Source: Epilithonimonas arachidiradicis (GTDB lineage Bacteria > Bacteroidota > Bacteroidia > Flavobacteriales > Weeksellaceae). From it: DNA of 64,000 nt. The notes beneath the pieces were generated by a model, which searched no databases, was not told the origin of the DNA, and worked only from the letters and a program-made list of their open reading frames with translations. This document shows positions 15,301 to 39,875 of the stretch, piece after piece (positions within the stretch are counted from its first letter, which is position 1; the number at the start of each line of letters is the position of its first letter). The DNA is taken from assembly GCF_003610695.1 (NCBI RefSeq), contig NZ_RAQH01000001.1, positions 248,001-312,000 of the forward strand, given 5' to 3'. The position numbers and the translations under genes were made by a program.

Positions 15301-16563
15301 ATGATTTATACTGATGATTTTTTCGCGTCGGGGAGCACTTACCAAAATAATAATGTAGTGCAATTAGTAGATAGCTATACTTATGAAAATGTTAACTTCA
15401 AGAAAGTCACACACTGGATCAATAATTATCCAATGGATGATTCCAAAGTTGATGGTATTATCTATAGAAAAAAGGGATCTGATTATTATGTTGATTCCAG
15501 CATATTATCTGGAGCTGAAATATCAGCCAAGAGATTTGGTGTGAAAGCCGATGAGATTACTGATGATTCTATAGCATTACAAAAAGCGGTGAATTTTGGT
15601 GTAAAAACAGGTTGGAATGTTGTTTTACCTGCAGGCAAAATAAAGGTTTCACAAACCATTGTGATTGATTTTACAACTAATATTAATGATGCGAACAGTA
15701 ATGGTAAGGATAGAAAATTTGAGCTATCGGGCAAAGGAGTACATGTGACTTATATTCTAGATGAAGGTGATGACGAACATACTGTTTTTGATGTAAAAGG
15801 TAACTTAGATCATGCAGATGGTTTTACAGCAAAATGCTTTTCTATCAGTAGACCTAATGTATCTATGCCATCTGGAGGTATAGCTATAAAAATTGAAAAG
15901 TTAATTTGCTTAAGCATCGAAGAAATTCAAATTTTTAAATTTAACTTAGGTTTTATGTTAATTGATTCCTGCATATCCTATTTCAAAAAATTAAAAATTC
16001 ATTACTGCAAATATGCTTTTAAAGGAGATATTGGCTCAGGTGTTGATAAAATTACAAATCCAAACCTACTAAATTTTGTAAATTGTACTTTTAATTCTAA
16101 TAACGATACTTCTATTCATTTGGAGGGGGTTCATAATGTAAAATTTGACAGCTGTGATTTTGAAGGGAATTTTAGTGATGTTTTAGTTTGTTCTTATATA
16201 GGTATTAATGGTAAAAACTCATTAAATTTAATAAATTGTTATTTTGAGGGGACAACAAATGGAGTAGATTTATTTTATCTACCATATACCGGAGGTACAA
16301 TTAATTTGATCGGAAATAGTTTTAGCAGAGTATATCAAGGTGCCTCACACAATATATTAGTAGATTTCCGATCATATAATGAGCTACAACAATTTACGAA
16401 TCACGAGCATTATTTGAACATGATTGGAAATGCTTTTAGAGACGATTATCAATTCACAGAATGGAATTCCTATGTTCCAGTACAAATCTGGGGAAATAAT
16501 AATCATTTACATATTAAGGATTCTAATTATTATGATCATGGAGTAAACTTGAGTCAAAATTAA
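15301..16563 (+). CDS. Right-handed beta-helix (pectate-lyase-3/tailspike-like) protein
   Basis: The 420-aa protein has the entry motif of pectate-lyase-superfamily and phage tailspike proteins, SAKRFGVKADEITDDSIALQKAV (about residues 76-98), followed by repeated strands such as LLNFVNCTFNSNNDTSIHLEGVHNVKFDSCDFEG, typical of a parallel beta-helix. No signal peptide or sorting domain is visible, unlike other exported proteins here. The codons are distinctly more AT-rich than in the neighbours and no partner gene is near, so recent gain, perhaps from a phage or a surface-polysaccharide locus, is plausible. The substrate is unknown. Start ATG 15301 is the only reasonable one. Confidence 0.7.
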   Translation: MIYTDDFFASGSTYQNNNVVQLVDSYTYENVNFKKVTHWINNYPMDDSKVDGIIYRKKGSDYYVDSSILSGAEISAKRFGVKADEITDDSIALQKAVNFGVKTGWNVVLPAGKIKVSQTIVIDFTTNINDANSNGKDRKFELSGKGVHVTYILDEGDDEHTVFDVKGNLDHADGFTAKCFSISRPNVSMPSGGIAIKIEKLICLSIEEIQIFKFNLGFMLIDSCISYFKKLKIHYCKYAFKGDIGSGVDKITNPNLLNFVNCTFNSNNDTSIHLEGVHNVKFDSCDFEGNFSDVLVCSYIGINGKNSLNLINCYFEGTTNGVDLFYLPYTGGTINLIGNSFSRVYQGASHNILVDFRSYNELQQFTNHEHYLNMIGNAFRDDYQFTEWNSYVPVQIWGNNNHLHIKDSNYYDHGVNLSQN

Positions 16564-16604
16564 AAAGTAAGATTTTTAGCTAATGACTTTTTGAATATTC
16601 AAGG

Positions 16605-16632
16605 GCAAAAAAGATTGGGAACGGAAGGCGGA
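16605..16632 (+). repeat. Dispersed intergenic repeat, family A, right half only
   Basis: GCAAAAAAGATTGGGA is identical to 1534-1549, followed by GGCGGAAAAGCTGCCC, the right end of the family. Confidence 0.6.
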
Positions 16633-16688
16633 AAAGCTGCCCAAAATAAAAATCAACCTAAAACATTGCAGGATTTACAGATAAACTC

Positions 16689-16697
16689 TAATTTTGC
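16689..16697 (+). promoter_or_regulatory. Predicted -7 box for the lysA transcript
   Basis: TAATTTTGC fits TAnnTTTG exactly. The transcript would start near 16702, 16 bases before the leader ORF. Confidence 0.6.
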
Positions 16698-16717
16698 AAA
16701 AAATTTTAAACAAAGCA

Positions 16718-16855
16718 ATGCAAATATTTAAACAAAACAAAATCGGAAAAAAGGGAGCTGTAAGGTTCACTAAGGTTTGGAATGTATAAAGAGTTGCGTG
16801 CATAAGATATCTATTGCGGCAGACTCTTTTTATAAGAATCTGCCTTTTTATTTTT
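16718..16855 (+). promoter_or_regulatory. lysA attenuator: Lys-rich leader ORF with alternative antiterminator and terminator
   Basis: A 23-codon ORF (16718-16789) starts MQIFKQNKIGKK and has Lys at positions 5, 8, 11, 12 and 19. Directly after its TAA, AGAGTTGC (16790-16797) can pair with GCAGACTCT (16819-16827, one bulge). That segment overlaps the 5' arm of a strong terminator, GGCAGA (16818-16823) with TCTGCC (16839-16844), plus inner TCTT/AAGA and a T5ATTTTT tail. The two structures exclude each other. A ribosome stalled at Lys would leave 16790-16797 free, whereas one at the stop codon would mask it. This is the classical leader-peptide design. A lysine riboswitch would be longer and its core is not seen. 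Lys codons are common in AT-rich DNA, so the bias alone is weak evidence. Confidence 0.65.
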
Positions 16856-16868
16856 AAAAATCTACCTT

Positions 16869-18068
16869 ATGACAAATCAGGACTTGCTGGCTATAGCAAA
16901 AGAATTCGGGACACCCGTTTATGTGTATGACGTTAATTCGATACGCGAACAATACGAAAAGTTGACTTCTTCTTTCTCGAAGAACACAAGATTTTTCTAT
17001 GCAGCCAAAGCTTTAACCAATATAAACATCCTGAAATATGTCGAAAAGTTAGGTGCTTCTCTTGACTGTGTTTCTATCAACGAAGTGAAATTGGGTTTGA
17101 AGGCAGGTTTCTCCAACGATAGAATTCTCTTTACACCGAATTGTGTTGACTTGGCAGAAATCGAGGAAGCAATGTCTCTGAATGTTCATATCAATATCGA
17201 TAACATTTCGATTTTGGAGCAATTTGGAAATAAATTCGGTGGTTCTTATCCAATTTTTGTGAGAATCAATCCTCATATTTTTGCGGGAGGAAATTATAAA
17301 ATCTCAACCGGTCACATCGATTCCAAATTCGGAATTTCTATTCATCAGCTTCGTCATATCGAGCGTGTTATGAAATCTACCAACATCAATGTGGAAGGAC
17401 TTCATATGCACACGGGAAGCGAAATCAAAGACCCTGATGTTTTCCTTCAAGGTCTTGAAATTATGTTCGAATTGGCAGAACATTTCCCAAATCTGAAATA
17501 TCTGGATATGGGAAGCGGTTTCAAAGTTCCTTATCAAGATGGCGACATCGAAACGGATGTGAAATCTCTTGGAAAAAAAGTTAATGCTGCGATTAAAAAA
17601 CACGAGGAAACTTCTGGAAAAAAATTCCAACTTTGGTTTGAGCCTGGGAAATTCTTGGTGAGTAAAAGTGGACATTTCCTTGTAAAATCTAATGTTATTA
17701 AACAAACCACTGCGACTGTTTTTGTGGGTGTCAATTCAGGTTTTAATCATTTGATCCGTCCGATGTTCTACGATTCTTATCACATTATCGAAAATCTTTC
17801 TAATCCAAAAGGTCCGGAAAGAATCTATACGGTTGTTGGAAATATCTGTGAGACAGACACTTTTGCGTGGGACAGAAAAATCAATGAAGTGAGAGAAGGT
17901 GATGTGATTGTTTTCAGAAATGCTGGCGCTTACGGTTTTGAAATGAGTTCGAATTTCAACTCGAGATTGAAGCCTGCGGAAGTCATGTTTCTTGACGGAA
18001 AAGCGCATCTTATCAGAAAAAGAGATGAATTTGAAGATTTATTAAAAAATCAGATTGAAGTTTTGTAA
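16869..18068 (+). CDS. lysA: Diaminopimelate decarboxylase
   Basis: LysA makes L-lysine from meso-diaminopimelate in the last step of lysine biosynthesis and uses PLP. The PLP lysine is K47 in FYAAKALTN. Substrate and PLP motifs include RINPHIFAGGNYKISTGH, HMHTGSEI, LDMGSGFKVPY, EPGKFLV and NICETDTFA with the active-site Cys near residue 327, and GAYGFEMSSNFN near the end. The 399-aa length is usual. It has no adjacent lysine or peptidoglycan gene and stands alone behind the attenuator, which fits control by lysine supply. Confidence 0.96.
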   Translation: MTNQDLLAIAKEFGTPVYVYDVNSIREQYEKLTSSFSKNTRFFYAAKALTNINILKYVEKLGASLDCVSINEVKLGLKAGFSNDRILFTPNCVDLAEIEEAMSLNVHINIDNISILEQFGNKFGGSYPIFVRINPHIFAGGNYKISTGHIDSKFGISIHQLRHIERVMKSTNINVEGLHMHTGSEIKDPDVFLQGLEIMFELAEHFPNLKYLDMGSGFKVPYQDGDIETDVKSLGKKVNAAIKKHEETSGKKFQLWFEPGKFLVSKSGHFLVKSNVIKQTTATVFVGVNSGFNHLIRPMFYDSYHIIENLSNPKGPERIYTVVGNICETDTFAWDRKINEVREGDVIVFRNAGAYGFEMSSNFNSRLKPAEVMFLDGKAHLIRKRDEFEDLLKNQIEVL

Positions 18069-25845: not shown

Positions 25846-25965
25846 ATTTATTTTATTTTTTGTTAATTATTTACTCTCAAAATCCCAAACTCTCCCATCC
25901 TCAAACTCTCCAACACAATTAGGGCGACTGCCAAAACCCAAAACTTTTCCCAAGCTATTTTGTCA

Positions 25966-26060
25966 CCGGGCTATCCGTTGCAATCTTTTGCTTTAGAACA
26001 TTTGTCATTCTGAACGAAGTAAAGAATCTAAAAAAGCAAAAGGATTTCCACTACTATCCC
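25966..26060 (-). repeat. Family A-like repeat interrupted by a GTCATTCTGAACGAAG unit
   Basis: CCGGGCTATCCGTTGCAATC and TTTTGC on the left, and AGCAAAAGGATTTCCACT on the right, are the two halves seen joined at 30204-30270. Between them lies TTTGTCATTCTGAACGAAGT...GAATCTA (26001-26030), a unit also represented at 1363. The order suggests insertion of one small repeat into another. Confidence 0.55.
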
Positions 26061-26161
26061 TGTCGCAGCTTCGCCGTCAATCCAACGTTTCTCAAAAAAA
26101 AGACCATCAAAAAAATAATGACAAATTGTCGCTTGGAATAAAAACTCTAATTCTAAAAAGT

Positions 26162-30194: not shown

Positions 30195-30280
30195 GAGCTA
30201 TTTCCCGCTTTCCGTTGCAATCTTTTTCTTTTTCGAAAAAGAAAAAGGATTTCCACTGCAATCAGGGCTAGGGATTTCAT
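30195..30280 (-). repeat. Dispersed intergenic repeat, family A, inverted copy
   Basis: GAGCTATTTCCCGCTTTCCG and TTGCAATCTTTTTC, then a palindromic CTTTTTCGAAAAAG, then AAGGATTTCCACTGCAATC. On the minus strand this gives the GGAAATCC...AAAGATTG...GCGGGAAATAGCT order of the family. Confidence 0.55.
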
Positions 30281-33124: not shown

Positions 33125-33256
33125 ATAATGGTCGCAATAGGGATAGTAACGGTTATCCTTTTGCTTTTCGGCTAAGATTTAGCTTGGGAAAAGCAAAAGA
33201 TATGAGTGGATAGCCCGACCCGAGCGTTGGCTAAAGCCTTGGAGAGGGATTGCCCA
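33125..33256. repeat. Mosaic dispersed repeat, related to family A
   Basis: It contains TTATCCTTTTGCTTTTC, then GGGAAAAGCAAAAGAT and GTGGATAGCCCGACCCGAGCG, followed by GGGATTGCCC. The strings AGCAAAAG, GGATAGCCCG and TTGCCCAAA recur in the copies at 25966 and 40558. The copy is diverged. Confidence 0.5.
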
Positions 33257-39290: not shown

Positions 39291-39875
39291 ATGGAACAAT
39301 CTTCAAAAGAATTTTTGCTGAAAAATATTCCCGGCATCACAGTGGAAGATGTAGAAATTCTTTCGCCATATACCAAATTAAGGACATTTGAATCTGGTGA
39401 AATCTATATCAGACCCGGAGATAATAATCGGAAAGTTTATTTCATCAAGAGTGGCATTGTCCGTGTTTATCATTTGTCTGATAATGGTACAGAAAAAACC
39501 ATTCTTTTTCACAACAAAAAAAGTTTTTTCGGTAACTACGACGGAATTATTTACAACCAACCCTCCAGATATTTTTATCAGTCTATTGGAGAAACAGAGC
39601 TTTTTGAACTCACTTACGACGCAATACATCTCGGTTCACAACAGAGCATTACAATTAACAATTTAAGGGCTGATATGTTTCTTATGATGATAGGCATTCT
39701 TTTGAAAAACATAGAAGATTTTGTACTTCTTAACCCCGAAGAGCGCTACCAAAAACACCTCGAAGAAAATGCGGCTGTCTTACAAAAAGTGCCCTCAAAA
39801 TATATCGCTTCTCTTTTGGGAATCACGCCGGTATCTCTAAGTAGAATAAAAAAGAGAATTTTACGCGGAAATTAA
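39291..39875 (+). CDS. Crp/Fnr-family transcriptional regulator
   Basis: The 194-aa protein has the sensor fold (residues about 25-120: FESGEIYIRPGDNNRKVYFIKSGIVRVYHL, KTILFHNKKSFFGNYDGIIY) and a C-terminal HTH (VPSKYIASLLGITPVSLSRIKKRI). It is similar in build to the regulator at 20260. No haem, iron-sulfur or cAMP signature is seen. The start follows the clpC terminator by 8 bases. Directly after its stop lies an inverted repeat with AAATGTAAA and TTTACATTT. Confidence 0.87.
   Translation: MEQSSKEFLLKNIPGITVEDVEILSPYTKLRTFESGEIYIRPGDNNRKVYFIKSGIVRVYHLSDNGTEKTILFHNKKSFFGNYDGIIYNQPSRYFYQSIGETELFELTYDAIHLGSQQSITINNLRADMFLMMIGILLKNIEDFVLLNPEERYQKHLEENAAVLQKVPSKYIASLLGITPVSLSRIKKRILRGN

Follow-up and report, generated by a model that had tools for sequence, protein, structure and literature searches.

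A candidate ribosome-mediated attenuator with a lysine-rich leader peptide upstream of lysA in Epilithonimonas arachidiradicis and related Weeksellaceae

Results

The window, i.e. the whole stretch of 64,000 nt of Epilithonimonas arachidiradicis DNA that was analysed, contains at 16869–18068 (+) the gene lysA, whose product, diaminopimelate decarboxylase, scored 375.2 bits against the NCBIfam equivalog TIGR01048 (cut-off 297.9). The neighbouring gene on the 5′ side (15301–16563, +; 420 codons) lies on the same strand as lysA and gave no match in a search of NCBIfam. Between the two genes a promoter was predicted, consisting of TTG (16666–16668, +), a 20-nt spacer and the −7 box TAATTTTG (TAnnTTTG; 16689–16696, +); the sigma-70 scan run here is directed at the wrong promoter type for Bacteroidota. 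The box is followed by a 23-codon leader ORF, MQIFKQNKIGKKGAVRFTKVWNV (16718–16789, +; ATG at 16718, stop codon TAA at 16787–16789), with Lys codons at positions 5, 8, 11, 12 and 19. Immediately 3′ of the leader stop stands AGAGTTGC (16790–16797), part of the strand AAAGAGTTGC (R2; 16788–16797, +), which overlaps the stop codon and would form the 5′ strand of an antiterminator. The 3′ strand of the latter (R3; 16815–16829, +) is also the 5′ arm of a putative intrinsic terminator (16818–16855, +), composed of a stem (16818–16844) with 11-nt arms, 10 pairs and one mismatch, and the T-run TTTTTATTTTT (16845–16855), which ends 14 nt before lysA, the gene proposed to be regulated.

A preliminary description of this DNA had proposed the same elements, namely the box, an ORF with five Lys codons, an antiterminator segment starting one base after the stop codon, and its partner within the 5′ arm of a strong terminator ending 14 bases before lysA; each was recovered at its place. 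Two helices are added here. Strand R1 in the leader start region (16714–16731, +) pairs with 16786–16802 in a stem of the 1:2 type, and a hairpin within the ORF (P1; 16753–16771, +) spans the GKK…FSK codons with a GUAA loop.

The terminator fold was calculated at −13.4 kcal/mol (z −5.5), and none of 200 dinucleotide shuffles was equally stable. For the antiterminator fold (16786–16829) −13.8 kcal/mol was obtained, a value reached by 1/200 shuffles, and the antiterminator pairing of the window was equalled by 15 of 500 shuffles of the partner strand. A generic terminator scan reported no site, probably because of the mismatch in the stem. Taken alone, the sequence of the window is not exceptional and offers little beyond chance: among its 48 ORFs with a length of 150 aa or more, seven are preceded at no more than 60 nt by a strong T-tailed hairpin, and at two of these seven (lysA and one at 39291) an ORF with at least 4 Lys codons is present as well. 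The element was judged real because of its conservation in relatives.

Within the genus of the window, which includes named Epilithonimonas species and several members still titled Chryseobacterium sp., the element was present at 22/22 readable lysA loci (the window and 21 others). The conserved block starts at about the promoter box, and the DNA further upstream is divergent. Among 119 distinct leaders having at least 45 nt of upstream sequence, 118 carry a TAnnTTTG box 16–29 nt 5′ of the leader start (1.6% of shuffled 50-mers contain one). The six core pairs of the terminator (G-U allowed; 3′ arm chosen for best pairing ahead of the T-run) were kept in 151/151 leaders, a number that includes species duplicated across two collections (113 of the leaders are distinct); 15 different combinations of arms occurred, and at pairs 1, 5 and 6 compensatory changes affect both sides.

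These observations bear on the simplest alternative, by which the hairpin would only terminate transcription of the upstream gene or control translation, and the Lys-rich ORF would be a by-product of AT-rich DNA. The upstream gene does lie on the same strand, and comparable hairpins precede 7/48 ORFs of the window, one of them besides lysA in company of a Lys-rich ORF. Box, ORF and hairpin persist in the genus, however, while the DNA 5′ of the box diverges; the box keeps its distance to the ORF in all distinct leaders except one, hairpin and T-run accompany every leader collected, and no strong hairpin of the family set described below (51 in all) occurs apart from the ORF. The alternative was hence rated as extremely unlikely.

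For the family, 100 upstream regions of lysA were compared, a non-random set comprising 22 of the genus, 69 obtained by lysA position and 9 through a peptide match (L008 was dropped, being at a contig end). The leader, for whose collection GKK or GSKK was required in the ORF, was carried by 53/100 regions and missing from 47/100. All 51 strong T-tailed hairpins (51/51) were accompanied by an ORF with at least 4 Lys codons and the GKK core, and two further leaders had an interrupted hairpin; seven of the 47 leaderless regions contained another ORF with at least 4 Lys codons, with no strong hairpin. By genus, the leader was found in 22/22 regions of g1 (that of the window), 10/19 of g20 (which holds Chryseobacterium piscicola), 14/20 of g26, 2/2 of g7 (which holds Halpernia frigidisoli), 2/2 of g24, 2/6 of g10 and 1/1 of g27; the remaining family genera examined at lysA had no leader. 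The 47 leaderless regions count against the attenuator, among them those of both examined members of g32, whose LysA is 89–90% identical, and of nine of the 19 genomes sampled from g20 (L163–L171). Several of these nine have a TAnnTTTG-like box shortly 5′ of lysA instead. This patchy spread within the family suggests loss or replacement. At one locus (L185), a hairpin GCAGG…CCTGC followed by T-rich DNA was seen close to lysA, and no leader ORF was seen there by eye; the hairpin is possibly a decayed attenuator.

A degenerate pattern of the type I core peptide (see below), searched against 84,980 species, returned 100 stretches, of which 98 were titled Chryseobacterium, Epilithonimonas or Halpernia, one Weeksellaceae bacterium and one Flavobacteriaceae bacterium. 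In 98/100 stretches lysA begins 78–86 nt 3′ of the leader stop; of the other two, one has the lysA start truncated by the end of the stretch and one ends before lysA. Outside the family, 0/17 readable lysA upstream regions had a leader (20 were fetched; 2 were too short and 1, L237, was wrongly anchored). One outside region (L242) shows a hairpin and a Lys-rich frame, but no GKK core, and the frame looks like the 3′ end of the gene before it, so it was not counted. A second leader copy elsewhere in the genomes of the family sample was looked for and rejected: strong peptide matches were one per genome, all before lysA, 32 of them with E ≤ 4e-6. A type II profile gave 16 matches with E < 1e-9 and two weaker ones before lysA in g10; it did not detect the leaders present at lysA in G137 and G048, which shows that such searches can overlook members.

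The leader peptides fall into two types, type I with MQNFKQxKTGKKGAVKFSKVWNI and similar (28 distinct) and type II with MxxxKSIKKVxAKGKKFFSKxNxVD and similar (18 distinct). Leaders are 23–25 codons long, and 23–31 over all members; for L194 the ORF was read with TTG as its start codon, which probably makes it too long. The types are strongly unlike in peptide and have in common the Lys codons, the alternative pairings and a stop-to-lysA distance of 70–94 nt. All 46 distinct peptides contain at least 4 Lys, with a mean Lys fraction of 0.249, compared with 0.088 of codons in the ORFs of the window.

A coding test was performed on 33 rows, which represent 24 distinct type I ORFs; 22 rows had been fetched by lysA, 9 through a peptide match and 2 by lysA position after a peptide match. 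Loci from the pattern search were kept out of the p-value because they had been selected by peptide pattern. Of the possible single changes, 13/37 synonymous and 21/161 nonsynonymous ones were observed (Fisher p = 0.0025), and variable columns numbered 6, 6 and 13 for codon positions 1, 2 and 3, a signature of coding constraint. In an alignment of 12 type II peptides, chosen by hand (the two peptides of g10, those of L193 and L194, and two near-duplicates were set aside), columns K8, K13, G14, K15 and K16 were invariant, four of the five being Lys. L193 has neither K8 nor K13, and L214 has lost its last Lys codon. Codons 12 (16751–16753) and 19 (16772–16774) read AAG in 24/24 distinct type I ORFs, AAG being the rarer Lys codon in the ORFs of the window (240/1405); decoding speed or RNA pairing may be behind this.

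Pairing of R2 with R3 was evaluated against permuted partners, in tests that leave shared ancestry in the statistics. With 56 distinct pairs, 0/20000 permutations were as strong as the cognate set; with 18 representatives chosen by hand, the cognate mean was −10.12 versus −8.78 for permuted pairs (14/50000 as strong). Covariation is apparent from GAGU:ACUC in most type I leaders, GAGC:GCUC in most type II leaders, and GGUCUG:CAGACU or CAGGCC in g24. On the other side, the cognate strand was the best partner in only 4/18 rows, and the cognate pairs of L204 and L207 are weak (−7.3). The preliminary description had proposed comparing the 5′ regions of lysA among relatives, and had named loss of the ORF or of the R2:R3 pairing there as evidence against an attenuator. 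Wherever the element is present, both are kept, together with the Lys codons and with compensatory change in the two alternative stems, and the R2:R3 pairing is non-random across relatives.

The R1:R2 stem would hide the leader start codon as well as the antiterminator strand, with a predicted duplex energy of −10.1 kcal/mol in the window. Cognate pairing was equalled by 16/20000 permutations in type I (66 distinct pairs) and by 290/20000 in type II (19 pairs); shuffled start regions paired as well with R2 in 2.7% of cases for type I and 24% for type II, so that support in type II is weak. With 15 type I sequences RNAalifold predicted the R1:R2 stem unprompted, the only both-side change in the consensus being 1/33 pairs (columns 32 and 106, A-U to C-G).

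Hairpin P1 was compared with synonymous recodings of the ORF, of which a mean fraction of 0.016 in type I (69 distinct ORFs) and 0.081 in type II (18) was as stable; in the window itself, where codon 18 (ACT) weakens the hairpin, the fraction was 0.083. P1 probably accounts for part of the conservation outside the Lys codons. A CTCT:AGAG pairing inside the ORF was also considered and dropped, being weak and missing in the window.

Discussion

From these comparisons, ribosome-mediated transcription attenuation of lysA by the supply of charged tRNA-Lys is very probably the function of the leader. Transcription would start shortly 5′ of the leader ORF. With lysine plentiful, the translating ribosome would reach the stop codon and cover R2, R3 would pair with its terminator partner (R4), and the polymerase would stop in the T-run. 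When Lys-tRNA is scarce, the ribosome would stall at a Lys codon and leave R2 free to pair with R3 once the latter is made, and transcription would continue into lysA. If the leader is untranslated, R1 would pair with R2 and termination would again be allowed.

The geometry proposed in the preliminary description, in which a stall at Lys19 frees the antiterminator and completion of the peptide masks it, held under an assumed ribosome footprint whose edge lies 13 nt past the first nucleotide of the codon in the A site. A ribosome with Lys19 there would end at 16785, leaving 16788 onward free, and one with the stop codon there would cover the RNA up to 16800. Under the same assumption, a stall at any of three or more Lys codons keeps R2 accessible in 113/113 distinct leaders, and in all of them a ribosome halted at the stop hides 70% or more of this strand.

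Two energy calculations count against the switch. When the whole leader was folded with a ribosome stalled at Lys19, the minimum-energy fold was still the terminator, and over the 113 leaders the mean energies were −10.7 kcal/mol for the antiterminator prefix versus −13.1 kcal/mol for the terminator. Since the terminator is thermodynamically favoured even in the stalled state, antitermination must depend on R2:R3 forming first during transcription. Also counting against attenuation, the Lys codons are scattered, in contrast to the codon runs of the his, thr and trp leaders of the same genome, and the conservation of Gly-Lys-Lys and Phe-Ser may stem in part from the RNA hairpin in the ORF.

The conserved residues other than Lys raise the question of an arrest peptide, i.e. 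a nascent leader peptide that stops the ribosome on free lysine or diaminopimelate and not through decoding of Lys codons, as the TnaC arrest peptide responds to tryptophan. Among 8 aligned type I peptides G10, G13, V15, F17, V20, W21 and N22 are kept (for other type I loci, the search pattern itself fixed most of these residues). Type II shares just the Lys/GKK core, yet has the same RNA switch with another C-terminus; conserved residues near the arrest site, as in TnaC, are thus not common to the two types. P1 offers an explanation for part of the conservation, and leaders with codon runs for His, Thr and Trp in the same genome speak for codon sensing. Arrest by the peptide was therefore considered very unlikely.

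The leader is strongly conserved in nucleotide sequence and has several predicted helices, which would also suit a metabolite-binding riboswitch that overlaps an ORF by chance. The lysine riboswitch and the Lys T-box control lysine genes from the 5′ leader as well, and need no ORF. At the lysA leader, no Rfam family reached its gathering score; a search of 16600–16900 at E ≤ 5 gave two chance-level hits, neither of them a lysine riboswitch or a T-box, and these two RNA families were rejected as candidates for this region. L20_leader was seen with E = 1.7, far under its gathering score. Three Flavo-1 RNAs (RF01705) lie in the window above gathering score (25960–26068, −; 30197–30273, −; 33126–33224, +), none of them at the leader. 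Codon change biased to synonymous sites and the conserved Lys-rich frame argue against a riboswitch, as does the failure to see an aptamer-like sequence common to types I and II, and this explanation was given hardly any credence.

Attenuation of lysA is in keeping with three other leaders of the same genome, each composed of a short ORF followed by a T-tailed hairpin: MSIQLMHHHHHFHVQAGR before hisG (L243), MNFIFTTTTSTSTTTTSVSCRKVRL before a gene for aspartokinase whose frame has 814 codons (L244) and MKSMNTKNWWWLSNSLSGLKGLSVF before trpE (L249). They resemble the lysA leader in ORF, hairpin and gene order, and a TAnnTTTG box is present at two of them; unlike it, they contain runs of the cognate codon (HHHHH, TTTT…TTTT and WWW). 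The comparison covered ORF, hairpin and box. Upstream of dapA and of a second aspartokinase gene, no comparable leader was seen by eye in 330 nt. Codon-run attenuators thus appear to be in use in Epilithonimonas arachidiradicis, and the lysA leader conforms to this pattern, lysine being its amino acid.

The trp, his, thr and leu leaders of enterobacteria are ribosome-mediated attenuators of amino-acid operons. The lysA leader agrees with them in its end-product codons (coding signature and at least 4 Lys in 46/46 peptides), the 1:2, 2:3 and 3:4 helices, the predicted intrinsic terminator between leader ORF and first gene, and a stop codon placed for the finishing ribosome to mask strand 2; the antiterminator would exclude the terminator by sharing one of its arms, and a 1:2 stem that would sequester strand 2 was found for type I, with weak support for type II. 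The lysA leader differs in the amino acid, the scattered codons, the position of strand 1 at the start codon and the hairpin in the ORF, and it has been found only before lysA. We consider the chances about even that it represents a lysine-only class of attenuator with doubly used codons, which would encode a Lys-rich sensor peptide and at the same time form two RNA helices, giving a switch with three states. In such a class, known so far only from part of the Weeksellaceae, an untranslated leader would hide its own start codon.

Attenuation of amino-acid operons was reportedly treated by Lopatovskaya et al. in 2010. For Flavobacterium psychrophilum, the available part of one report (PMC9723704) notes leader-peptide attenuation before amino-acid biosynthesis operons, with pheA and hisG among the 5′ elements conserved in other genera; this is the same kind of mechanism in a flavobacterium, the genes named being pheA and hisG instead, and the name lysA is absent from the main text. 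In Sinorhizobium meliloti, a leader peptide with Thr and Lys codons (SEP5) was suggested before an aspartate dehydrogenase gene (PMC10117765), which differs from the lysA leader in phylum and in its mixed Thr/Lys content, and for which the accessible portion of the article describes no switch structure. The sections available of PMC4833913 mention no lysine leader. Among the matches listed in a search of the open-licence literature, no leader-peptide attenuator of lysA was found, and a prior prediction may exist elsewhere in the literature. The earlier statement that leader-peptide control of lysine genes is little described in Bacteroidota thus stood as far as lysA is concerned, and is to be narrowed for attenuation as such, which has been noted in a flavobacterium (PMC9723704) and is represented here by the candidate his, thr and trp leaders. 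This class of mechanism has long been known, and the candidate lysA attenuator is a new instance of it.

Conclusions

The literature searched says little so far on how Bacteroidota control lysine synthesis, and the lysA leader provides a concrete, testable candidate regulator in several genera. Its short length makes it useful for the study of ribosome stalling where mRNAs have no Shine-Dalgarno sequences, as stated for flavobacteria in the part of PMC9723704 available. Together with the leaders of the same genome, it suggests attenuation by codon sensing as a common feature of the his, thr, trp and lys pathways in one flavobacterium.
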